Positions 12,323 to 64,000 of a stretch of 64,000 nucleotides of DNA are shown here, piece by piece. This stretch comes from Undaria pinnatifida (lineage: Eukaryota > Sar > Phaeophyceae > Laminariales > Alariaceae), in NCBI GenBank assembly GCA_012845835.1, contig JABAKD010000106.1:141141-205140 (forward strand), read 5' to 3'. The notes below the pieces were generated by a model that worked only from the letters and a program-made list of their open reading frames with translations, made no database searches and was not told the origin of the DNA. Made by a program: the position numbers and the translations under genes. Position 1 is the stretch's first letter, and each line of letters opens with the position of its first letter.

Positions 12323-13969
12323 ATGGAAGAGTCCACAAAAGCAGGTGATGCGGTAGACAAGCTCGTTAGAGCTCTCAACGGCAAACGTAATGGGCTCATG
12401 TTCGACATGGAAACGCACGGCTCAGTCCGTCATAAGTATGCGTCATGCCGGGATTTCTGATATCCTGGAAGGACGCCCTTGCCCCGAGCCCAAACAAACT
12501 AATTAGTCCTCGTCCATCTTCTATAAGACGTAGGCCTTCACGAGCTGTAACTCGCAGCATGGCCGCTGACGAAACGGACACGCAGTCCGGGGAAACACCC
12601 CCGGCTGAAACAGCAGAGAGGGTTCAGCCGGACGCAACGAGTACTCCCGTGGACACGGCGAATCTTCTACCATCATCTTCAAAACATTCTACACTCCCAG
12701 CGGCAACATCAGTTGTATAGGCCACGGACGACAACATCTCGAATTTGGAACACAACAAGCACTGGCGCTGCGACAACGGTCATCTGTTCGACTTCTTGTT
12801 TCTGAGCACATCGGGAGCTGCGGCCAGCTTTCTTGCACAATTCAAGCCGAAACGGGGTGAACTTGCGAATGGGAAGGTTGCTTGGGATGGTATCGTTAGA
12901 AAATATAAAAATGGGAGAGGTATTCAAACAACAACTAACTCATACGGTCATGACGGATGGGCAAGACCCAGACGTATTTGGCATTGAAGTATACTACTTA
13001 CGGGGTGAATTGGTGGACATTGGAGAGGTATTCAACCATAGCAGCATTTTGGACATAGTGCTGGAAGGACTCAAGGATGAATAACTGAAATTAAAATAAA
13101 GCGCCGAAGCAGATGATGACTTCACGCTCGACCGAGCTGTGATAACAGCACGTAATGTGAATGCCAATAGAGCTATGCGAAACGGACTCTCGCGAAAAGC
13201 AAAGGGGCGTTAGTCTGCTATGGTAGTCACGTCAACACCCTCAGCAGTAGTGATATTTTCTCACTGCAAAAAGCCAGGCCATCGATTCCAAAATTGCTTT
13301 AAACGCAATAGAACGATGTCGGGGAAAACATCTCCCCCAACACCTCGAAAAAAATCGTCGTGTAACCTTCATAGTATCGATCGCCACGATAATAGCGTCT
13401 GTCGGTCTCAAATGCGGGACGACAACATAACCCGTCGCCCTCATCCTGGTCAACAAAATGGTCCGCATAATAACCTCAGGGCTCACGCCAACACCACCAC
13501 AACTTCAACTTCAACAACGCAAATGGAAGCTTACGTGCCAGGGATACATGCTCCATTCATTACAGCGGCTGCGACTACAGCAGCTCCTTTTACGTCCATC
13601 GCGACTCCTCTCTGTCCAACCTCACCTCCAGTTGGTATACATTATTCTTCCATCGCCGCACCTCCTATCAACATCGCCGCGCAGCCCGTCAACCTCTGCA
13701 TGACTGCGGACAGCGGGGCTTCTAGCCACTTAATCGACAAGCAGCTTCTACCAGGCATCTTTTGGGGGGCACGCTACAACCACCTCAAAGACATCAAAGT
13801 TCCGGATCAAACACGCCTGGAACGGAAAGACATGGCAGCAAAGCTTGAATGGCATGGGCTCCTAGCCAGGAGTGAGTACGCAACTATAAAAATGTTTTAT
13901 AGCCGCTCAGGTCCTTATATAAGCGAGATGACTTGCTGTTTTATCGAAAACAGAGCTTACAGCTTTTAG
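12323..13969 (+). pseudogene. Copia gag and protease remnant
   Basis: An ATG at 12323 opens MEESTKAGDAVDKLVRALNG and stops after about 46 codons. Gag resumes at 12745-13084 in two frames, with the copia-type Gag (UBN2-like) ending LDIVLEGLKDE. After further stops, 13220-13969 holds a zinc knuckle written FSHCKKPGHRFQNC, in which the first Cys of CX2CX4HX4C is replaced by Phe. It also holds the protease motif ADSGASSHLID near 13700-13735. The frame ends at 13969 without integrase. Multiple stops and frameshifts make this a pseudogene. Confidence 0.75.
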
Positions 13970-29347: not shown

Positions 29348-31160
29348 CTCCAAATGATGTTGCCGAGTTATTCCTTAGAATTGAAGTCCCGTCGATGTTG
29401 ACCGTGGAATTCTTGGAATAGATTGCACCTGTGGAACATGCGGCGGTAACCATTCTACGACGTCTTAGCAAAATGCGAAATAGTTTTTGTTTCCCAATAT
29501 ATATGCCTTCATGCCCAATCCCGTGTTGCCATGCATACTATATGGCATCGAGGTCCCTCGGTGGTTAGTCCAGCAGACCTGACATATTCCCAAACGGAGA
29601 CGGTCAGGGTTTGGTTGGAGCGAGCACGGCAAACATACATCACAACGGAGGCGAGCTGCGTCAACTCCGAAAGAAAACTTGTCACACATAGAGAAACGGC
29701 GTCATTAAGCCAACGGTGACAGGTTAGAAAACCGGAAACACACGACGTCGTCAACTGGAAGTAACGGCTGCTGCTGGCATATGGAGGGGAGACCACGGAG
29801 GTCGTGGGGACGTGAGCTCTACCATTACCCTTGGATTATCCGACAGTAATACAGGCTGTTTTCGCCTATCGATTCCCAGACAACTTCCGCACAGGTCGGC
29901 CAAGGTTGGGGTTGGGGTTGGGGAGAGGCTTAAGCTTAGAGTTCAGGTTAGGGTTCTTAGGGTTGGGGGTTATGGCAAAACCTTACCTCCATTACCATGG
30001 AACGTGAACCACATGCAACACAAAAATGGCATGTCTTCCATAGTTAACCAACCTCCACTATCATGGAACAGGAGCTACATGCCGTACTATAACGAAGCAC
30101 TTTTTCCTTATCCTCTGCCGAATATTAAAATAGCCTGCATAGGCGCCTAACAATGTGCAGTATCAAGAAGAAATGCATCATATGTTGCAAATGTACCTTC
30201 GCCAAACAATTTATACGTGATTATCACGAGCGCGAAGTATACATCGTCGCTCTCGGTCAATGGCTGTCCCAAGGCGGAGCCAGTCTCACGTGTTTGTGCA
30301 CACGGGATTCTTTCCTTTTTGTTCATATATATTTTGAGTTCCCTCGGCCGACGTGATATTTTCCTCAAGCTCGCCGTCAACATTCTGGGAATGGTGCGCA
30401 ACAAAAAATTCAGTAATGAGGTGACATGTCCACACCGTGACAACATGGCTGTGCTGTCGATGTGCAGAAGTGTAATCACGACGACAGCTTGGCTGATACT
30501 TGTATATACAAGAAGGTGTTCTGCGGTACAGGTTGCTGCGGTACGAGCATCAGTGTACAGCCTTACATACGGTTACAACATCCAATCGCTACAACCCCGA
30601 GTTAAGCACAAGAAGGGTAGTCGCTCACCGCCGTTAGTAGCGTTGTTGGCGGTGAAGACACAGTCTATCACGTTAACTATGTTGGTGTCGACGTCCCGGA
30701 AGCTTGAAGAAATTGCGGCCACTGCCCCTCCCTGATGCGAATTCCCTCCTTTGAGCTCTAGCTTGACAAGGGTCAACGTGGACCTATCTGACACATGAAA
30801 TATGCCATTCGAGTTTCCTCCGTCAATAACAGCCACTTCGTCGATGTCGAACTCGGCGGCGTCTGAAGAATCTCTTGAAGCCTGAGCAACAATCAAGTGG
30901 CTTCCACCTGTCACCTCGATTGTTTTCGCAACAGGTACGGTTCCAAACCAGGTGACACTGAACATTCCTCCTCCAGTGCAGTTGAGTGCTTCTACCAGAT
31001 CTTGCACGCCGGCAGCATTTGTCACGTCCATCTCCGTAACTAACGGCGAGCACGGGGCCGACTCGACTCCTTCGATGAATATACGACTTGTAAGAGCTGC
31101 GATAAAGGCCACTCCGACGCGCATCCTGGTTTGGTTTAGGGCACACGCGATCACGATCAA
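29348..31160 (-). CDS. Secreted right-handed beta-helix repeat protein, 5' part of a spliced gene
   Basis: Exon 1 (31160-30629) starts at ATG 31160; a second Met at 31124 would begin a typical signal peptide (MRVGVAFIAALTS). It encodes beta-helix-type text: FSVTWFGTVPVAKTIEVTGG, AVIDGGNSNGIFHVSD, LKGGNSHQGGAVAAISSS and CVFTANNATNGG. It ends in phase 1 at donor GTGAGCG. Exon 2 (29428-29348, 81 nt, phase 1-1) follows acceptor TTCCACAG and encodes GAIYSKNSTVNIDGTSIL...GG, continuing the repeat in register to donor GTACGC. The intervening 1.2 kb may hold one intron or further exons. Downstream exons and the stop were not found. Related proteins are extracellular; substrate and function are unknown. 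Confidence 0.6.
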
Positions 31161-31539
31161 ACAACCAAGCAGTTAAAGGAGGTAGTACTCGAGCAGACGG
31201 GTATGATGCATCTGAGCGAGGAGCCTTTACAAGGGTGGGAGGGGGTGTGCAAGGATTTAGGCTGTGCACAGCATATCCAGCCGGCCGGATGTCGGTGTGA
31301 TATCTGTGGTAGTTGGAGATAGGGTGGCGGCAAACGTCTGTCATACGGAAGGTTTTACAGCTTTAGCATACGTGCGGCTCCTCTGTGCAGGGTCCGAATG
31401 ATGAATTGTACAAGATGCAATTGAACCAAAGCGAAAATACCAAAAGTCAAGCATGTCTCTTGATACCCAGGTATGCTTACAAGTTTTTGACGATGAGTTG
31501 AAGATTCGTCTTGCCTGTCTTTTGGCATATATATTTCGA

Positions 31540-51554: not shown

Positions 51555-52206
51555 GGTCGCCCCGTTGGCGTAGCAGGTTATCCTCGAACCTGTTGTAGGT
51601 CAGTTTCGTGAGTTCCAACCCCCCCCGAGTGCAAACTCGTTTTTTTTTTTTTCATCCTCCGGCGGATGGGGAAAAAGAAAGCTTCAGCTCACCACACTTC
51701 CACGTATTTTCATACGCGTCGTGTGTCGATTAAACTCGGTTGCTTTCGCAGCCCAACGCTAGTTGGCGCACCCTTCGGGTCCCATTGTAGGTATAGCGTA
51801 AGCTGTCCCTGTCAGTGGTCTTCGTTACAACCAGCTATACCTACAATGGGATCCGAAGGTTGCGCCAGCTAGCGTTGGGCTGCGAAAGCAACTGAGTTAA
51901 ATCGACACACGACGCGTATAAAAATACGTGGAAGTGTGGTGAGTTTATTTTTCCCCATCCGCCGGAGGATGGAAAAAAAAAAACTCGTAAAAATTCGTGG
52001 GGACTCCTTCTTTCGCAAAAATTGACTTGCTGAAAACGCGAGAGCGTGAGTTAGTAGCACTCTATCATAAATCGATGAGCAGTGGGATTGCTGAACCCTA
52101 TGCCCGATAAAAAATGATGGCAAGAACCGGGGGAAAGTAGGGACGACACCTGTGACCCCGGCAAGTCCAGATTCTAGAAGCTGGAAAGTAGAAGTGTGCG
52201 CAAAAA
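51555..52206 (+). mobile_element. Family S SINE interrupted by a foldback element
   Basis: The head and A/B-box region (51555-51640) and the body (51981-52206, ACTCCTTCTTTCGCAAAAAT to GACGACACCTGTGACC) together make one SINE. The 341-bp insert between them is bounded by AAACTCGT on both sides (51633-51640 and 51981-51988). Confidence 0.75.
51641..51981. mobile_element. Complete foldback element (family M) with target duplication
   Basis: The left arm (T run, CATCCTCCGGCGGATGGGGA, CTCACCACACTTCCACGTAT, CGACACACGACGCG-type segment, CCCAACGCTAG) and the right arm are near-perfect inverted copies that meet around CAGTGGTCTTCGTTACAACC near 51815. The A/T runs form the outer ends. The 5-8 bp direct repeat outside (AAACTCGT) marks a true insertion into the SINE. 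Half copies occur at 20.1, 25.8 and 37.8 kb. Confidence 0.75.
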
Positions 52207-52269: not shown

Positions 52270-52378
52270 TACTTGTAATGTTGTTGTTCTCACATTAACC
52301 CAGCATGAACTCGAATAATCAAGTACATGATCACACGACAGGCTCCGGTCACTCTGGAGATGAGGAATACCCCAGGGA
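52270..52378 (+). repeat. 5' fragment of family R, truncated at the YR element
   Basis: TGTTGTTGTTCTCACATTAA through CGGTCACTCTGGAG to ACCCCAGGGA matches the head of 5515-5945 and stops exactly where the A1 repeat of the YR retrotransposon begins. Confidence 0.5.
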
Positions 52379-52601
52379 AATTAATATATTCAAATTCATT
52401 TCGAATATGGAGTTTGTGCAATTTGAGGAGGCAAGAATGTGGAAGGGGAGAGGGGTTATATTATAGTGGAAGGCTTTCGGTGAAAGTGCCGTGGGAGCTT
52501 GACACTTCCATGCGAGCAGCGAAACGAACTGCGAAGCAACACGCAGACGCAAGGGGAGCTGCAGCGAGCATCGGTTTCGTATTTCGGGTTTGATCGTTTT
52601 T
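52379..52601 (+). repeat. A1 split direct repeat
   Basis: Starts AAATTAATATATTCAAATTC and ends GGGTTTGATCGTTTTT. It differs from A2 by a few substitutions and a 2-base insertion (TTTGTGCAATTT versus TTTGCAATTT). It precedes the gag ATG by about 10 bases, so it presumably contains the promoter and leader. Confidence 0.9.
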
Positions 52602-52611
52602 CGCGGGCAAG

Positions 52612-55266
52612 ATGAGCAACGCAGGCAAGCGACGGGCTCGCTTATTTGCGGCGAATGAGGACGACACAGGCCGCAACCGCGAAGAAGCAATGGCCAGCAA
52701 CAGCGAGGGAAGGGGAGGCGAAGAGGAGATAGACGGAGAGGGCACCGTCAGCACCGAGGGAGAGGATCTCGGAGCAGGCTCGGGCACGGGCTCCGGCAGC
52801 GGCGTAGCTTGAGTCGACGAGCCGCTAGGAAGCAGCGGCAGCAGGCAGACGCCAGCTGAGCAGCTGCTGGAAGCCGTTTTGCTGCTCACAAAAGTCTTGC
52901 AACAACAGCCAGCGCAGCAGCAACCAGCACAATAGCCGCAACAGAAGCAGCAGGCACCTCTCGTTCAGCAACAGCAACAACACCTAGCAGCACCCCCGGG
53001 TGGGCCCGCAGTACAGTAGCAACTCCAGCAGCAGCAACACCTCCAACCAGCACCCCCGGCTAAGCCCGCAGCACAGCAGCAGCCCGCAGCACAGCAGCCT
53101 CAGCAGATCGAGCCGCAGTTGCCACAACAGCCACCGCAGCTGGCAGGACAACACCCCCAGCAGGTAGTCGCCGGGCAGCAGCAGCACGTCATGCAACAAC
53201 CGCCTTACGCACAAGCTCCACACCTTCTGGGCGTGCAGTTCCCAGGATGGTGGCAGGGGGGAGGGCATCCGTTGCAGCCACTGTGGGGTGGCGTGGGCGG
53301 CCAATTTGGGAGCATGGAGCACGCCAGCAGTGTAAAAGCCCGTACCATCTCGGCGGACTCCACCAAGCGAAAAATCAGGATGTGGCAGGAAGCAGGAGCA
53401 GCGGAGATGTTTGTGCTCCGAGGTGGTCTGTTTGTGCTGCCATTGTCGTCTAGCGATTTGTCACATGTGCTCAGGTTCATCGTCGACCCTAACAAGCGGC
53501 TCATCGACATGATTACTCCCCCGATAGCAAACATCGACATAGACGCGTTTTTACCTCTGGTCGAGCCGGGAACCGCGGCAGTGCCCCGAGCCGCAGAGGT
53601 GCACTTCCAAACGTTCGTCGAAGTTCTGGTGAAAGTGACCCAACAGGGAGCAGCGGAGTCCGCAGGGGGCGTGTCGCAGGGCAGGCGGGACTTGCTGATC
53701 GAGGAATGGCAGAAAATGTCCAAGACTCTCACCGCGTACATGAACACGCATTACAACACACTACTGCCAAGGCAGCAGCAAGTTCACGAGCGAGTGGTTT
53801 TCGCGGCCAACAGAGACATCAACGACTTTTTCGGACTGGTTTTAGACGCCGCGGTTCCGGTGAAGACTGCCTTTCCCAACTCCGCCCCGCCGGAAGGGAA
53901 GTGCGCCGGGATAAATGCCCCAGCCTTCACGATGCTCCGCGAACTGACATCGCGGGGAAGTTGCAGTTTGCTGCTTCGGATGGACACATCGCTGGAAGTG
54001 CCCAGGCTGGGCGGCTCGACGGCGGCAGCAAAACCGGTCAAGAGAAAGGCAACCACAGGAGGGATTCTCCCACCAGCCACGCGGCCGCGTACGGACGGGG
54101 AACCGCGGGCGGGTTGGCCTTTTGTTTCGGGCCTGCAGCAGATGCGGACGCCGGAAGGGACTTGCCATTTCGCGTGGCGGAGGCAACAGTGCAACAGAAC
54201 CAACTGTCAATACTCGCATGGCCCGTTCGTTCAGGACGGTACGGGGGCCCGGGGATTGCCCTGCCCGCCACCGCCGCCGCCGCCGCCGAGGTACCAGCAC
54301 CAGGAGCACCAGCAGCAGCCACAGCAGCTGCAGCAGCAACAGCAGCTGCAGCAGCAACAGCAACAGCAACAGCAGCAGTAGCAGCAGCAACAGCAGCAGC
54401 CTCAGCAACAGCAGCAGCCTCCGGCCGCCGTCGCGAGGTTCAGCTTCTCGCACGGGCAGAACCAGGGGAGAAGTGGCGGAGCTCAGGGCAGGCAGGGACC
54501 CGGAGCGGGGAGAGGTGGTGGTAATTGACAGGGCGGGCCTCGCCTGATGGCGGGGCCGGACGGCAAGTGGCGCAATGCGGAGGGTGGAGTTTCGCCGTTC
54601 GTGGACACCAGTAAGTCGGTGGGACTGACTGGCGCGCCCCAACCGGGATCGGTGTCGCAAGCGGTGTTCGTGGGTGAGTCGTGTGACCGTAAATGTGCCG
54701 AGTGGGTTCTTGACAGTAGGACAACTTTTACTGACCAGCATAGCGGTAAGAAACGTAGCAACGCTAGAAATGATGGTTGTCAGTTGCCGGACTCGGTTGG
54801 TAACGAGCCGGAACAGAGTGGCGGTAGGGTCACACAGCGTTGCCAGGAGAAAGGTGAGTTGCCGAACCCTGGTAGTTTCGAAAAAAAAATCAATCACACG
54901 GTGCATAATTACTGTGGGCATGGCCAGTCACCTGTCCGTGATGGTCCCCAGTTGGGACTGTCTAAAACCAATAACGCAAGACAGGTTTACTGTGGGCATG
55001 GCCAGTTGCCTGCCTTTGATCGTTCCGAGTCGGAACAGGATAGCAGTAAATCTAGACAGCGTTACCAAGGTCATGGCCAGTTGCCTGGCCTTGGTCGTGC
55101 CCAGTCGGCGCAAGGCTTGCGAGAGTACTCAAAAGCACCGCAGGGGCGGCATGGTCACGACCAGTTGCCGGATCATGAGTCCCGGGCGGAAAATAAATTC
55201 CAGAGTCATGGCCAGTTGCCTGACGTTGGTCGTGTCCAGTCGGCGCAAGGCTGGCGAGAGTCCTGA
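52612..55266 (+). pseudogene. gag of the YR retrotransposon, in-frame stops
   Basis: One continuous frame of 885 codons from ATG 52612 to TGA 55264, broken by TGA 52810, TAG 52933, TAG 53017, TAG 54379 and TGA 54526. Layout: acidic Gly/Ser N-terminus; Gln-rich 52890-53220; a central folded-looking region about 53300-53990 with few repeats; a CX8CX4CX3H zinc finger (Cys codons at 54163, 54190, 54205; His at 54217); a Pro run; a long poly-Gln tract; and a C-terminal region with about seven 25-residue repeats built on GHGQLP (54770-55260). Gag would package the element RNA. All stops are one C-to-T change from CAG or CGA. Confidence 0.75.
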
Positions 55267-55455
55267 TAGGCAACCAACTTAGGCGAGTACGCAAAATAAA
55301 AATATGTACCCGAGTCGGGGTGACAAGTAGCCCCTTTAGATGGAAAAGAATCGTACTATACTCAAGTTCAGACATGCAATGTAACCAACAATGGCAACAG
55401 CAAAAAAGCAAAAATCGCTGAGCTGAACGGAAGATGGAATCAAACAAAGGTGTCG

Positions 55456-57573
55456 ATGGCCGCCGAAAACCGCGACCTTGCTAGAACGAAACGAGTCATT
55501 CGAGAGATGGCAGAAATAGGCACAGAGCTGTTTCATGTACGCGATGGTAGTGTGGGAGACGTGGCTGTTGGAATCGGAGGCACCTTGGTGTCACCTCCTT
55601 TCTCTCTCAGCCAAGTGGAACACTATTTTGGGCTTATTAAGGGCTTCCCAGCAATAACGGAGCTCGTAGGCATTATCAAGAATGGCGTCCCGCTAAAAAC
55701 ATTGGTCACGGACCTCGACCCAACCAGAGCAATGCAGTATGGAAATCACAGCACCGTGGCAGAACACATGGACCTAGTTTGGAAAAAACTGTATAAAAAT
55801 ATTAGACGAAATCGAGTGCTCGTGTTTGAAAGAGAATCCGCTGCCTCTTTAAAAGGGCGGCGGGTGGCACCTCTGGGGGCGGTGGTCACACACAAGGTCA
55901 GAATCATTAACGACTACTCGTTTGAGGCCGGAGCGGCCAGGGGGGAGAAGGGGGGACTGAACAGAGACACACAAACTGAAGAGGTACCAAAATGTCTCTG
56001 TGGTGACGCCCTCCCCGCACTTCTAAAGGCTCTAACAGACCTTCGATTAAGGTTCCCTAACCGTCGTATACTGTTGGCAAAGGCAGACGTAACTGACGCT
56101 TTCAGGAATGTTAGAATTGCACCGCACCAGGCACAGAACGTTTGTCACGTGGTAGACGATGTGTTGGTATCGGATTTCAGACTCACCTTTGGATGGGCAG
56201 CCTCGCCAGGGTACTGGGGCCTCATGTCCGCAGCGGCCGAACACGCCCACTGTAACACTACGGTAAATAGCGCCGTTATCCTACCAGAAGGAAAGGCCAT
56301 GATGTCGCACGTCAAAATCGTGAGGCCGTGGGAGAACGGAAGTCCAACCCGGATTCCGACCGGAGTAAGAGTTAACTCCCCGAAAAGGGGCGGGCCAAGC
56401 GAACCGTTTTTAACGTCCGTGTACGTTGATGATTTTATTATGGCCAGCGTGCAGCTCAACGCTTCAGATCAGAGAGCCCTCATAGCGTCGGCTTCTCTCG
56501 CATCAGATAACGTAAGATTCTTTGGACCAGGCGAAAAAAGTGAAACTCCAATTCTTGCCCCGAAGAAGAGCACGAATTTGAATTCAACTGTAGATGCTCT
56601 CGGTTTTACCATCAACACCCACACCATGCGAATCTCTGTCACTAAGGAAAGGATAGAAGCGATTAGACTACTCCTAGAACTTGAGTGGCCGAGTAGCAAA
56701 ACGCATGCAGGCGCGCAGGCCGTTCTCAGCATGGCCGGGAAATTATGGAACCTCACGTATGGAGTCAGAGCGGGAAGATATTTTGTCTGGCACCTTTTAC
56801 GTTTGACCGATCTTCACAAAATAGCTAAGTCGAAAGAACGGACGTGGAGAGTAGTTAAACTGGGCTGGGAGTTCCACAATGATATTGCCTTCTGGAAGTG
56901 GGCAATCGACCACAACTTGGTTAACGCTGGGGAGTCGCTTGGAGCACTTTTTTACGCACACGTACAACGAACTGCCTTACGACGATACTACTCAGACGCA
57001 AGCTTTACTGCAGTCGGGGGGTTTTGCCCAGAGCTCCAGGTGTATTGGAGATACGATCTGAACCACCGGCTGTACGAGTTTCTGCGAAAACAGGTGGTGA
57101 CAAAGGGCGAGGACGCAATAACGATCAACTTGCTCGAACTGTGTGGCATGGTAATGACAGCGTACGTGACACAAGTCCTTTTGAAAGATAGGCCGAAAAC
57201 GCCAGGAGATCCAGTACTGTTGAGAGGAGACAACGTGGCAGCAGTGTCGTGGATTAACAGATGTGGAGGATCACGTAACAGACGTGCGGCCCTAGCCATG
57301 AGATTACTGGGTAGACTGGAAATCACGAGCGGTTGGACCCATGACGCAAAAAATATTTCCGGTGTGCAGAATGTGGTGGCTGACGGCATTTCAAGGTGGC
57401 CAAAAGAACAGATCGCGCGCAACCTGCAGCCCCTCGTACACGGGGAATGGAGAGAACAAAGTATAGGTCAGAGCGGGTGCGGATTTTTCGAGACAATTCT
57501 ACAGCCCAATTTTCCCACAGAGTACATGGATGACGATGTATGGGATGCGATGACACGAACAGCAGAATCATGA
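55456..57573 (+). CDS. Reverse transcriptase - RNase H of the YR retrotransposon
   Basis: Intact frame of 705 codons from ATG 55456 (an in-frame GTG lies two codons earlier). RT copies the element RNA and RNase H removes the template. RT motifs of the DIRS/Ngaro type are visible: KVRIINDYSFE, AKADVTDAFRNVRI with the first catalytic Asp, FGWAASPGYWGLMS, and YVDDF at 56422-56436 (about residue 323) with the two active-site Asp. RNase H follows with SDASF (57000), the INLLELCG Glu, RGDNVAAVSWINR, and VADGISRWP. No methyltransferase or other domain follows. The stop overlaps the region from which the recombinase frame opens. Codon use and intactness contrast with the decayed gag. Confidence 0.9.
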   Translation: MAAENRDLARTKRVIREMAEIGTELFHVRDGSVGDVAVGIGGTLVSPPFSLSQVEHYFGLIKGFPAITELVGIIKNGVPLKTLVTDLDPTRAMQYGNHSTVAEHMDLVWKKLYKNIRRNRVLVFERESAASLKGRRVAPLGAVVTHKVRIINDYSFEAGAARGEKGGLNRDTQTEEVPKCLCGDALPALLKALTDLRLRFPNRRILLAKADVTDAFRNVRIAPHQAQNVCHVVDDVLVSDFRLTFGWAASPGYWGLMSAAAEHAHCNTTVNSAVILPEGKAMMSHVKIVRPWENGSPTRIPTGVRVNSPKRGGPSEPFLTSVYVDDFIMASVQLNASDQRALIASASLASDNVRFFGPGEKSETPILAPKKSTNLNSTVDALGFTINTHTMRISVTKERIEAIRLLLELEWPSSKTHAGAQAVLSMAGKLWNLTYGVRAGRYFVWHLLRLTDLHKIAKSKERTWRVVKLGWEFHNDIAFWKWAIDHNLVNAGESLGALFYAHVQRTALRRYYSDASFTAVGGFCPELQVYWRYDLNHRLYEFLRKQVVTKGEDAITINLLELCGMVMTAYVTQVLLKDRPKTPGDPVLLRGDNVAAVSWINRCGGSRNRRAALAMRLLGRLEITSGWTHDAKNISGVQNVVADGISRWPKEQIARNLQPLVHGEWREQSIGQSGCGFFETILQPNFPTEYMDDDVWDAMTRTAES

Positions 57574-58686
57574 ACACTTGCTCAAACCCCTCCGAGCAGG
57601 ATCATACGCGGGAGAGGGAGGGAATGAGGAAGAGGCGAAAAGACTGGTGGAGACCCTAGCGTTGGCCTCGGTGGGGGGAAGCACGCAAAAGGTGTACTGG
57701 AATCAATGGAAAACGTGGTGCCGTCTCAGGGCGATAGAAGGAAAGGGGGCGTGGCTGTTAGAAAGAGACGGAGTCGATGCGGCAGTTACAGAGCTGATGA
57801 AATTCATGGCGTTGCGATGCTTTAGCTTCAAAAACCAGAGTCAGACGGTTCGGGGTTACCTAGCAGCGATCAAGTATTTCCACAGAATGTTTGTGGGTTG
57901 GGAATTGCGCACTTCACACTGCATGGTGACAGCAGTAGGGAAAGAAATCGACAGAGCACACCGTAAGTCGGAGGTACGCCCCAAGGTAAGGAAACCTCTG
58001 TCGTGGGAACTGCTAACCAAGGGGAGGGGGTGCGTGGCCGGTGTAGAGACCGAAGGGTGGGTAGTGTGGTGCGGTCTCGCTTTGTCGTTTCATCTATTGT
58101 GCAGAGCCTCGGAAATTTGGGCGTTTGGTAATGGCCTGGTACACCCGGACTTTTGTCTGACGAGAAGGGACTTGTTTTTTTTTTGCGGGAGCGTCGCAAC
58201 TGGCGTGGGATGACAGGCGCATAGCGGACAGAGTAGAAGTGACGTTCCGCGCGTCCAAGTCAGACAACAAGACAACAGGTTGGGAGCAACGGTACCAGGA
58301 CGAGCGTAACGGTAGGGAAGGATCAAGCGACGAGGGGTGTGAGTGGTTACGGGGCCCTGGAAATAATTCTGGACCTGCTAGACCTTCACCCCGAATTGAG
58401 CGGGTCAGCACCACTCATGCCGACACGCACGGCAAGCGGGTGGAAGATTATCTCGCGTGCGGTAGCGACGAAGGCCTTGAGGCGGATGGTCAGTAGTTTG
58501 GGGAGAGACCCGACGCAGTACGCCTTACACTCAGGTAGGATTGGTGGGGCTACGCAGTTGGCGGCACAAGGTGCTTCGGACATTCAGATCCAAAGAGCGG
58601 GGAGGTGGATGTCTCTGGCGTTCATGGTTTACGTAAGAGCGGGAGGGGAGGGGGCAGACTTTGTGTCAGAAGCTCTAACAAGGTAA
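57554..58686 (+). pseudogene. Tyrosine recombinase of the YR retrotransposon, two frameshifts
   Basis: YR integrates the circular DNA. The N-terminal part (to about 58174) reads GSTQKVYWNQWKTWCRL ... VRGYLAAIKYFHRMFVGWEL and LCRASEIWAFG with the first catalytic Arg. A run of ten T (58175-58184) shifts the frame. Homology continues in another frame as RRIADRVEVTFRASKSDN, then shifts again near 58300-58340 to VSGYGALEIILDLLDLHPEL, LHSGRIGGATQLA (HxxR), QRAGRWMSLAFMVYVRAG (W and nucleophile Tyr) and ends at TAA 58684. All R-HxxR-W-Y residues survive. No ATG opens the frame near its start; it begins just after a stop at 57551, overlapping RT, so expression may have used frameshifting or reinitiation. 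Confidence 0.85.
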
Positions 58687-58741
58687 GGCGGGAAGAGAAG
58701 TAACAAGATAAGTTTCAGAGATATTCGGGCTTGCCCAATGG

Positions 58742-58936
58742 AGAAAAGTGGGGCCAGGGTTTCCGTTTTTCTCGGCGGTACGGGGCCGAAACGTAAACGT
58801 AGCGGGTTAGCCCGAAGGGTGTTTTTCCATGTTTAGTTCTGGGAGTAGGTTATCCCATTGTACCATGTGGGTGCCTTACAGGCATCATTTTACTGCGTAA
58901 ATTAATTCCACAATCCTTGAGCCAAAATATAACAAA
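58742..58936 (+). repeat. B1 split direct repeat
   Basis: Starts AGAAAAGTGGGGCCAGGGTT, ends GAGCCAAAATATAACAAA. Almost identical to B2. It joins A2 directly. Confidence 0.9.
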
Positions 58937-59155
58937 TTAATATATTCAAATTCATTTCGAATATGGAGTTTGCAATTTGAGGAGGCAAGAATGTGGAAGG
59001 GGAGAGGGGTTGTATTATAGCGGAAGGCTTTCGGTGAAAATGCCGTGGGAGCTTGACACTTCCATGCGAGCAGCGAAACGAACTGCAGAGCAACACGCAG
59101 ACGCAAGGGGAGGTGCAGCGAGCATCGGTTTCGTATTTCGGGTTTGATCGTTTTT
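58934..59155 (+). repeat. A2 split direct repeat
   Basis: Second copy of A1, lying between B1 and B2. The B1-A2 junction regenerates the sequence expected at the junction of a circular intermediate. Confidence 0.9.
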
Positions 59156-59242
59156 TCCCCACCGTCCCACCCTAACGCTCAAGAGAGGGGGGGGGGGGGG
59201 GGCAGTAAGGTTTTTAGTATAATATAAGTGTAACATAGTAGC

Positions 59243-59437
59243 AGAAAAGTGGGGCCAGGGTTTCCGTTTTTCTCGGCGGTACGGGGCCGAAACGTAAACG
59301 CAGCGGGTTAGCCCGAAGGGTGTTTTTCCATGTTTAGTTCTGGGAGTAGGTTATCCCATTGTACCATGTGGGTGCCTTACAGGCATCATTTTACTGCGTA
59401 AATTAATTCCACAATTGCTGAGCCAAAATATAACAAA
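59243..59437 (+). repeat. B2 split direct repeat, right end of the element
   Basis: Second copy of B1. It is separated from A2 by about 87 bp containing a run of about 17 G (59187-59203). Similarity to B1 stops at 59437, which sets the right end of the element. Confidence 0.9.
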
Positions 59438-59659: not shown

Positions 59660-61130
59660 CGACGATGGAAAAGTGCAAATCACCGTAGGCCGAAGCTTTC
59701 GTGGCTGCTGCTGTGCGCGGCCCTAATGTGGCTGCCTCGGATGCTACGCGAATCGAGGCAGAGGCTTATGATGCTGTCGCTGCTGTGTAAGCTGGGGCTG
59801 ACGCTCGCCGTGATGATGCTCTGGCCGCTGTGCAAGCTGAGTCCGAAGGTCGCCGTGCCGCAGCCGCTTCGGTTGCTGCTACTGCTGCGTCTGCCACCGC
59901 GGCACCATCTTTGTTCAGCCCCAATCCCACTGTGTCCGAGGCAGCAGGGGTCACATCGGCTGAAGTGCTGCTTTGGCAAAGGCAGGTGTCTGGCGAGTTC
60001 GCTCGGATAGACGGAGACGTGATTCGCCTCAAGTCCACGATGGATCGGCTGCTCGCATCCTTCGAAACCTTGCAGGATGCGGTGGCTGGTGGTGCGTCAA
60101 GAGTCGAGAACGTCGAGGCCATGTAGCAGCAGTTCATGGACAACGTTGGCGATCGGCAGCCGGCCCCACGGGACAGTGGGGACGTGAGGGAGCGCCAACT
60201 CTAAAAGTCGCAATTAACCGACGATACGGCGCTCTGGAAAACGATGGCGTCAAGAAAACATTGGGTGCTCCGCGGGCGCATACCTCCCAACATTGGCGAC
60301 TCGGCGGCGGATATCCAGTCCTTCGTAGGCGAGGCCGTCAACGTCACAACGTCAGTGGCTACCCAGCTCCTCGCGATCAGTGACTTTGACGTTCGTGCGT
60401 ACGGGCCGCGGGCGGAAGGGATGGTCGACCACCTGTTGATGGTCGCTGACCGCCTTGGTTTCTTGCGCCAGGATCTTGTGGCGGTCCTGTCTGTTGGATA
60501 TTCCCTCGACAGCGACGGCGACCGTCACTGACGGGAGAGGGTGGCAACGATCTATGCCGCCTTCACGTCAGCGTCGGCCGACCTACGCCGGCATACTCTG
60601 AGCAATATTATCCTACTCTCTGGCCCCGCGGCGCGGGCCGTCATGAGCGACATGGTAAACGACGATCTTTGCCTGTGGGTGAACGACCTCATGCGATTTG
60701 CGCAGCAATCCGTCCGCCGATCGTGCCCCCTCCGTCCCACTTCACGTTCTCGATGCCGCCCGTGCCTTCGTTCAAGCGCACGAGCGCCTTTTGCTCTAGC
60801 GGGGGAGACGTGCTCAAGCTCGTCGAAGGATTGCATGTCCCCCGCGACAGCCACAACGGGTCGTCCCAGAGAAAAAGCAACCCGGCCAGGCCCGGTACAC
60901 CAAAGAAAGAAATCGCTGCCCAGTGCCGGCAGTTAGCTTCTCTGGGCCGATGCCGGTTCTTCAACTTCAAATTCTTGCACTCGACTCCCCCGGCCGACGC
61001 CACTTCACCCGATGCCCTTCGCGATAGTGGCAGTTCGGCGGCGCCGGCTGTTGGGTCGCGAGCGTTGGTGCTGCGCTCAGAGCCCCGCGGTGGCTCCGGG
61101 AGTGGTAGTGGCGGCGGGGGTTCTGGATGA
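59660..61130 (+). pseudogene. Second gag-like frame, decayed, next to the telomere
   Basis: One frame runs from about 59660 to 60720 with stops TAG 60124, TAA 60202 and TGA 60529. It has an Ala-rich N-terminus, a predicted coiled coil (VSGEFARIDGDVIRLKSTMD and onward), then LLAISDFDVRAYGPRAEGMV and LGFLRQDLVAVLSVGYSLD. Reading then shifts to another frame (60669-61130) with CRQLASLGRCRFFNFKFLHS, a CX8CX4[F]X3H motif matching the CX8CX4CX3H finger of the YR element gag except that the third Cys is Phe. A Gly-rich tail follows. I infer a gag of a related but distinct retroelement; RT and recombinase are absent. Confidence 0.5.
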
Positions 61131-61730: not shown

Positions 61731-61756
61731 GTTAGGGTTAGGGTTAGGGTTAGGGT
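61731..61756 (+). repeat. Interstitial telomeric tract 1
   Basis: Four TTAGGG units between unrecognised sequence and subtelomeric unit 1. Confidence 0.9.
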
Positions 61757-62792: not shown

Positions 62793-62877
62793 TTAGGGTT
62801 AGGGTTAGGGTTAGGGTTAGGGTTAGGGTTAGGGTTAGGGTTAGGGTTAGGGTTAGGGTTAGGGTTAGGGTTAGGGT
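62793..62877 (+). repeat. Interstitial telomeric tract 3
   Basis: About 14 perfect TTAGGG units between subtelomeric units 2 and 3. Confidence 0.95.
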
Positions 62878-63068
62878 TATAGTGCCGCTCCGGGCGATGT
62901 GGGAATCGGGTGACGTCAGGCCTAGCACCAAAAAAAAATTCAGCTCCTTAGCTAAGTCTGGGTCACCGGCAGTGGTTAGGATTTTGATTCTTTCGCGAGT
63001 TAGGGTTAGATGAAAAGAGACTATATTTGCGCTAGGGGAATTTGGGCCAATGTTGGGAATCCACACTA
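62878..63068 (+). repeat. Subtelomeric repeat unit 3, truncated by the terminal array
   Basis: Matches the first 190 bp of units 1 and 2 (TGACGTCA at 62911-62918) and stops at CCACACTA, directly followed by GGGTTAGGG. Units 1 and 2 continue AAACC at this point. The break lies at a TA dinucleotide compatible with telomere addition. Confidence 0.9.
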
Positions 63069-63845
63069 GGGTTAGGGTTAGGGTTAGGGTTAGGGTTAGG
63101 GTTAGGGTTAGGGTTAGGGTTAGGGTTAGGGTTAGGGTTAGGGTTAGGGTTAGGGTTAGGGTTAGGGTTAGGGTTAGGGTTAGGGTTAGGGTTAGGGTTA
63201 GGGTTAGGGTTAGGGTTAGGGTTAGGGTTAGGGTTAGGGTTAGGGTTAGGGTTAGGGTTAGGGTTAGGGTTAGGGTTAGGGTTAGGGTTAGGGTTAGGGT
63301 TAGGGTTAGGGTTAGGGTTAGGGTTAGGGTTAGGGTTAGGTTAGGGTTAGGGTTAGGGTTAGGGTTAGGGTTAGGTTAGGGTTAGGGTTAGGGTTAGGGT
63401 TAGGGTTAGGGTTAGGGTTAGGGTTAGGGTTAGGGTTAGGGTTAGGGTTAGGGTTAGGGTTAGGGTTAGGGTTAGGGTTAGGGTTAGGGTTAGGGTTAGG
63501 GTTAGGGTTAGGGTTAGGGTTAGGGTTAGGGTTAGGGTTAGGGTTAGGGTTAGGGTTAGGGTTAGGGTTAGGGTTAGGGTTAGGGTTAGGGTTAGGGTTA
63601 GGGTTAGGGTTAGGGTTAGGGTTAGGGTTAGGGTTAGGGTTAGGGTTAGGGTTAGGGTTAGGGTTAGGGTTAGGGTTAGGGTTAGGGTTAGGGTTAGGGT
63701 TAGGGTTAGGGTTAGGGTTAGGGTTAGGGTTAGGGTAGGTTAGGGTTAGGGTTAGGGTTAGGGTTAGGGGTTAGGGTTAGGGTTAGGGTTAGGGTTAGGG
63801 TTAGGGTTAGGGTTAGGGTTAGGGTTAGGGTTAGGGTTAGGGTTC

Positions 63846-63877
<32 letters not shown>

Positions 63878-64000
63878 GGTTAGGTTAGGGTTAGGGTTAG
63901 GGTTTGGGTTAGGGTTAGGGTTAGGGTTAGGGTTAGGGTTAGGGTTAGGGTTAGGGTTAGGGTTAGGGTTAGGGTTAGGGTTAGGGTTAGGGTTGGGTTA
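63069..64000 (+). repeat. Telomere (TTAGGG)n, chromosome end
   Basis: About 155 units in the G-rich orientation toward the window end, as for a right chromosome terminus. The proximal 270 bp is perfect; scattered variants appear later (TTAGG at 63340 and 63371, TAGG at 63736, GGGG at 63769, TTCGGG at 63843, TTTAGGG at 63855, TTTGGG at 63903, TTGGG at 63993). Confidence 0.95.

Follow-up and report, generated by a model that had tools for sequence, protein, structure and literature searches.

Among retrotransposons that carry a tyrosine recombinase (YR), split direct repeats without a methyltransferase mark Ngaro and VIPER (PMC4157794), and the absence of target duplications is listed as a mark of the group (PMC8969392). 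Ngaro open reading frames (ORFs) are usually non-overlapping (PMC3266345), and 15 Ngaro and 5 PAT-like families are reported from the brown alga Ectocarpus (PMC12477816). In the parts of this literature on which we draw, integration by YR retrotransposons is stated as a model from repeat structure.

Here we describe an element at positions 52378-59437 of the window, by which we mean the whole 64,000-nucleotide stretch of DNA analyzed (G000:C9:141141-205140, the terminal part of a contig 205 kb long; the genome comprises 511 Mb in 68 contigs). It is very probably a decayed Ngaro-like YR retrotransposon from a family that would integrate by YR recombination of a B-A junction core. The element is an additional member of an already known kind, not a new kind.

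Structure and coding capacity of the window element

The ORFs of the element are framed by two pairs of direct repeats in the order A1-ORFs-B1A2B2 (Table 1). A1 and A2 differ by 6 substitutions over 222 aligned sites, with 2 gap positions, and B1 and B2 by 4 substitutions over 195 sites. Among the 20 other loci with a matched G run, the length of the run in the spacer is 14-18. DIRS1-type inverted terminal repeats are absent, the sole inverted pair between the end regions (I17) being of 21 nt and 76%.

Table 1. Features of the element, numbered by position in the window
Feature	Position	Strand	Remarks
Repeat A1	52378-52601	+	left end of element; first three bases AAA, the crossover core
Gag-like frame	52612-54525	+	from ATG, 4 in-frame stops; Q-rich
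Cys/His motif in gag, CCCH-like	54157-54222	+	weak Pfam zf-CCCH_12 match, E 0.19, below cut-off
Pol start	54529-55263	+	degenerate internal repeats; closed by stops in the window copy, open in a sibling copy
RT/RNase H frame	55324-57573	+	open, 749 codons
RT-type motifs	56074-56103, 56188-56223; YVDD 56422-56436	+	
RNase H-type motifs	within 56989-57399	+	
Tyrosine recombinase	57554-58686	+	split over two frames
YR motifs	R 58100-58117; HSGR 58522-58548; W 58597-58608; Y 58624-58638	+	
Repeat B1	58742-58936	+	
Repeat A2	58934-59155	+	AAA at 58934-58936 common with B1 end, the internal B-A junction
Spacer A2-B2	59156-59242	+	87 bp, run of 16 G
Repeat B2	59243-59437	+	right end; final three bases AAA

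The reverse transcriptase (RT) frame contains LAKADVTDAF, SPGYW, and YVDD, which we take to be RT-type motifs, and further acidic motifs in the RT/RNase H frame are presumably of the RNase H type. No RT or RNase H match was obtained for this frame in Pfam, NCBIfam, or PDB, and PF00078 matched neither the window frame (E up to 1) nor a sibling pol or its RT part alone (E up to 10). A structure prediction for the RT frame from the single sequence had a mean pLDDT of 35. Because of this value and the lack of a family match, the identity of RT and RNase H rests on motifs. A tblastn search of the RT frame against phage records, together with a scan of viral contigs, gave no matches, and the best Pfam row of the sibling pol was DUF6303 (E 0.0034, below cut-off and unrelated-looking).

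The recombinase lies on the same strand as RT and carries R, HxxR, and Y. Weak Phage_integrase matches were found for the C-terminal YR frame of the window (E 0.26) and for the C-terminal 200 residues of a sibling YR (E 0.11), whereas with the whole sibling YR (375 residues) a search at E up to 10 gave none. The sibling YR also matched a PHROG integrase (E 0.0031), and in PDB Cre came third (E 0.97), after two eIF4E rows (E 0.29 and 0.41). The motifs plus these weak family matches are the evidence that the protein is a YR.

Four stops at 55264-55321 lie directly upstream of the open RT/RNase H frame and in the same frame, so that pol is open in its RT/RNase H section but not over its full length; the intact RT/RNase H reported in the initial annotation stands for these 749 codons. 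In one sibling, pol is a single open frame of 1180 codons stop to stop, and a sibling gag is open for 682 codons. Small indels break the YR of the window copy, and at least two of these indels are absent from every aligned sibling. With gag, the pol start, and YR all broken, the window element is a dead copy.

Measured between stops, the pol and YR frames overlap by 20 nt (57554-57573), leaving no interval between RNase H and YR. The same overlap is found in 7 of 10 listed siblings, and the remaining 3 are broken at that place. No methyltransferase match was found in Pfam for the sibling pol or YR. The initial annotation had described a YR retrotransposon with split direct repeats in the A1-ORFs-B1A2B2 arrangement, no methyltransferase after RNase H, a recombinase with R, HxxR, W, and Y, and damage in gag and YR. 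The alignment of both repeat pairs and the RT-type and YR motifs bear out this description: all four recombinase motifs were located, the overlapping frames leave no room for a methyltransferase, and the damage consists of the gag stops and the split YR listed in Table 1. The subtelomeric site claimed for the element is likewise confirmed by the TTAGGG array that closes the window at 63067-64000.

Short TTAGGG runs start near 61731, ∼2.3 kb from the element, and from there to 64000 they are joined by longer arrays (62793-62879 and the closing one) with repeated subtelomeric units between. To the right of the element, 59680-61130 is GC-rich with broken, perhaps gag-like frames that give the impression of possibly another retroelement. 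A MITE-like inverted repeat at 51641-51983 has arms of 110 and 40 nt that are 95% complementary, and sequences related to it are present at other places in the window and next to further copies of the element. Elsewhere in the window, the open frame at 13214-13969, with a CCHC-like motif and DSGASSH, is presumably a Copia-type gag/protease piece, and an open frame on the reverse strand at 30573-31172 gives the impression of a repeat-rich, β-helix type protein.

The family in the genome and the joints of complete insertions

A tblastn search of the RT frame against its own genome gave at least 70 match rows, of which one copy may give several. At least 14 of these rows, that of the window included, span all 749 residues at 95-100% identity, and other groups of rows lie near 67, 57, and 50% identity. 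A search with 34 bases from the beginning of A gave 76 genome sites and 0 in the reversed control, a result beyond chance. Grouped by hand, these 76 sites make up 42 insertions, 33 with A1 and A2 and 9 with a single A, and all 67 sites of an end-of-B pattern were assigned by hand to the same 42 insertions. Both patterns were matched with up to 3 mismatches, so that more decayed copies would escape. Other copies with A1/B1A2B2 ends, by whose presence the initial annotation had proposed to judge its reading, were thereby found.

Both ends could be read in 34 complete insertions (29 with A1 and A2 and 5 solo A-spacer-B copies), 7 insertions are right-truncated, and 1 is rearranged. The solo copies may be either a product of recombination or self-moving. 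In the rearranged insertion (L043, C28:8.685M), which was left out of the complete and truncated counts, A2-spacer-partial B2 is followed by an inverted YR piece, YR-B1, and the first bases of A2, with the two outer ends close to base 10 of A2. One of the 33 insertions with A1 and A2, at C30:25991668-25992862, is a tandem B-A-spacer-B-A-spacer-B with an extra A-spacer-B unit. L044 was dropped as a truncated candidate when its B end was located 3.8 kb further on, which makes it complete with a nested insertion.

The initial annotation had taken the close similarity of the repeats as a sign of fairly recent insertion, a claim that finds no support relative to the family. In other copies A1 and A2 show 0-6 differences (n = 10), 8 copies lying below the 6 of the window element and 2 equal to it, and B1 and B2 show 0-9 (n = 16), with 13 copies below its 4 differences, 3 above, and 6 having identical repeats. 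Where A and B differences could be summed, in 6 siblings, three totals (3, 3, and 7) fall below the 10 of the window element and three (11, 11, and 15) above. In a FastTree phylogeny of pol plus YR from 25 copies, its terminal branch is the longest (1.29%), two others measuring 1.20%. The window copy is among the more diverged members of a family that also includes little-diverged copies. A +1 in the A-run of pol that is shared by 4 copies was considered as the mark of a lineage moved in trans, an idea dropped because the carriers stand at two places in the tree.

At 27 of the 42 left ends the core reads AAA, compared with 2.7% AAA in the window outside the element; the remaining left cores are CAA, GAA, TAA, ATG, CTA, TAT, AAT, and GAG. 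Among the 34 complete insertions, the left and right cores are AAA/AAA in 21, a left triplet other than AAA with AAA at the right in 11, and TAA/TAA in 1. One further copy, C33, was scored AAA/AAC, which we take for AAA preceded by a small deletion in B2. The asymmetry, a target-like triplet at the left joint and AAA at the right, is 11 versus 0 (p = 0.001), or 11 versus 1 with C33 counted against it (p = 0.006). The target origin of the left core is directly visible only in insertions with a target repeat, L081 and L037. On the tentative one-ended reading given below, the left-right bias would further suggest single-strand exchange.

At the paralogous empty sites of L033 and of the L030/L056 copy, AAA is present once at the crossover and nothing is duplicated. 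In complete copies, exact repeats of left-flank sequence that end at the core reach at most 8 nt, and both repeats of that length lie in low-complexity flanks. In complete L033, a repeat of left-flank sequence (224 bp, 89%) also starts 63 bases into the right flank; as this repeat also supplies the empty site, we consider it an older tandem repeat in the target. The complete insertions have no convincing target duplication within the right flank tested (250 bases in 22 copies), long duplications being possible in the 12 copies for which only ∼60 bases were read. These findings support crossover at the 3-base core, the AAA of which matches the B-A junction. The pattern at complete joints agrees with the DIRS1 integration model (PMC3266345), and the insertions without duplication agree with the group mark listed in PMC8969392.

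From these joints and the repeat layout, we infer the RNA ends, template switches, circle, and enzyme activity of the family as follows. An RNA covering most of A1 to B2 would be reverse transcribed, and, as this RNA would be without the outer ends, the internal B1-A2 block would act as the template that rebuilds the B-A junction. The predicted product is a DNA circle with a B2-A1 junction, whose AAA core YR would recombine with a similar target triplet, leaving complete insertions without target duplication. With 42 readable insertions in one genome, this circle model can be tested base by base.

Right-truncated insertions

The truncated insertions are a feature that the circle model does not predict, and simple circle integration does not account for those that carry target repeats. 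All 7 of the 42 are truncated on the right and none on the left (p = 0.016), and in 7 of 7 the left joint is at the normal base. The right flank was searched over 250 bases (115 for L081) for exact copies of left-flank sequence that end at the core. L046 has a 171-bp perfect repeat by BLAST, including AAAT, and 63 of 63 tested bases ending at the core match. L047, truncated inside A2, has a repeat of 29 bp, or 34 with microhomology, and L081 (solo A) one of 21 bp. In L045 BLAST found a 14-bp repeat that ends before the core (6 bases by the core-ending test), and filler at the right joint resembles nearby target sequence. L049 (solo A) has 8 bp, or 9 counting a base common to the element, and L037, truncated in B2, has 6 bp. 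C35, truncated in B1, has no target repeat (5 bases, within the range of complete copies).

Repeats of at least 20 bases were thus present in 3 of 7 truncated copies, as against none of the 22 complete copies read over the same flank length (p = 0.0096); the two classes were defined after inspecting the ends, and the p values given here are descriptive. A mismatched-flank control yielded one repeat of 27 in 287 truncated-flank pairs and one of 12 in 1394 complete-flank pairs. Barring later local duplication or assembly error, the long duplications should date from insertion, because a later deletion would not copy the left flank rightwards. LINE-type retroposition was set aside on account of the right-sided truncation, the exact left joint, and the lack of poly(A) at the right joints inspected. 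In the literature covered, which did not extend to the reviews by Poulter and colleagues, we saw no description of YR insertions that are truncated on the right and carry target duplications.

A possible reading, to which we give somewhat less than an even chance, is that these copies arose by one-ended integration, in which a linear cDNA that carries the B-A junction would be joined by YR, at its A-start, to the target. The far end would then be closed by host end joining after a distant second cut, leaving the target duplicated, and the T-run at the end of repeat A may be where cDNA synthesis begins or switches. One-sided truncation with a normal left joint is consistent with this proposal, as are the repeats of at least 20 bases and the 4 of 7 copies (L045, L046, L049, and L081) that end a few bases from the end of repeat A. 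The events number just seven, however, in classes chosen after the ends had been seen. Their 5-, 6-, and 8-base repeats are within the range of complete copies (up to 8), C35 has none, and repeats of 27 and 12 arose in mismatched controls. Long duplications are possible in the 12 complete copies read for ∼60 bases, and complete L033 has its own flank repeat. The reading adds to the circle explanation and does not replace it.

An unlikely alternative is that host break repair captured cDNA without the recombinase. End joining typically gives variable duplications and filler, both of which are seen here, but against break repair stands the left joint, which in all seven copies is at the same base as in complete insertions. 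As a general proposition, that a YR retrotransposon can integrate linear cDNA at one end, with the end of A as the site of cDNA start or template switch, we would put forward only tentatively, as rather more doubtful than probable. If one-ended integration were true, target duplications would arise in a group that is noted for being without them. If other YR families share the truncated class, the intermediate and the order of joining could be tested from genome sequence alone.

Classification and comparison with known systems

The initial annotation had placed the element in a joint Ngaro/PAT type. By the structural criteria published in PMC4157794, on which the assignment as Ngaro-like rather than PAT-like rests, the lack of a methyltransferase favors the Ngaro part of that placement over the PAT part. 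The window element has the split direct repeats, with the internal repeats downstream of YR, of Ngaro; PAT-like elements share the split direct repeats and have a methyltransferase, which is absent here. Descent from a PAT-like element through loss of the methyltransferase is quite improbable. Such a loss is suggested for one nematode lineage in PMC4157794, which also cautions against classing on structure alone, and the motif in gag is weakly zinc-finger-like, but no gap for a methyltransferase exists between RNase H and YR in the window copy or in the siblings with intact overlap. An LTR retrotransposon or other element misread as a YR element, to which the failure of family models to detect RT might point, is extremely improbable given split repeats that are not LTRs, the HxxR...Y motifs, and complete copies without convincing duplication.

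As a Ngaro-like element, the window copy has a pol/YR overlap where Ngaro ORFs are usually non-overlapping (PMC3266345), its 20 nt being counted between stops and not start codons. DIRS1-like elements resemble the family in their integration model, in which a 3-bp junction recombines with the same triplet in the target and no target duplication results, and differ in having inverted terminal repeats and a methyltransferase, neither of which was found in the window element (PMC3266345). The Ectocarpus families and the window family, compared by description, are both YR retrotransposons (PMC12477816).

The Ngaro elements of Cafeteria burkhardae share with the window family the A1-[ORFs]-B1A2B2 layout, the order gag, RT-RNase H, YR, and solo AB repeats (PMC8547959). 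Many of them sit in virophage elements, and their RT is reported to match PF00078 and their YR PF00589 (PMC8547959), whereas in the window family RT has no match and YR only weak ones. The PF00078 match is reported for the Cafeteria RT (PMC8547959) and is no defining Ngaro feature in the part of PMC4157794 that we used. VIPER/SIRE of trypanosomes, a kinetoplastid lineage that we liken to the window family by structure, has split direct repeats as well, and the short left end-spacer-right end arrangement of SIRE resembles the solo A-spacer-B copies (PMC6681497).
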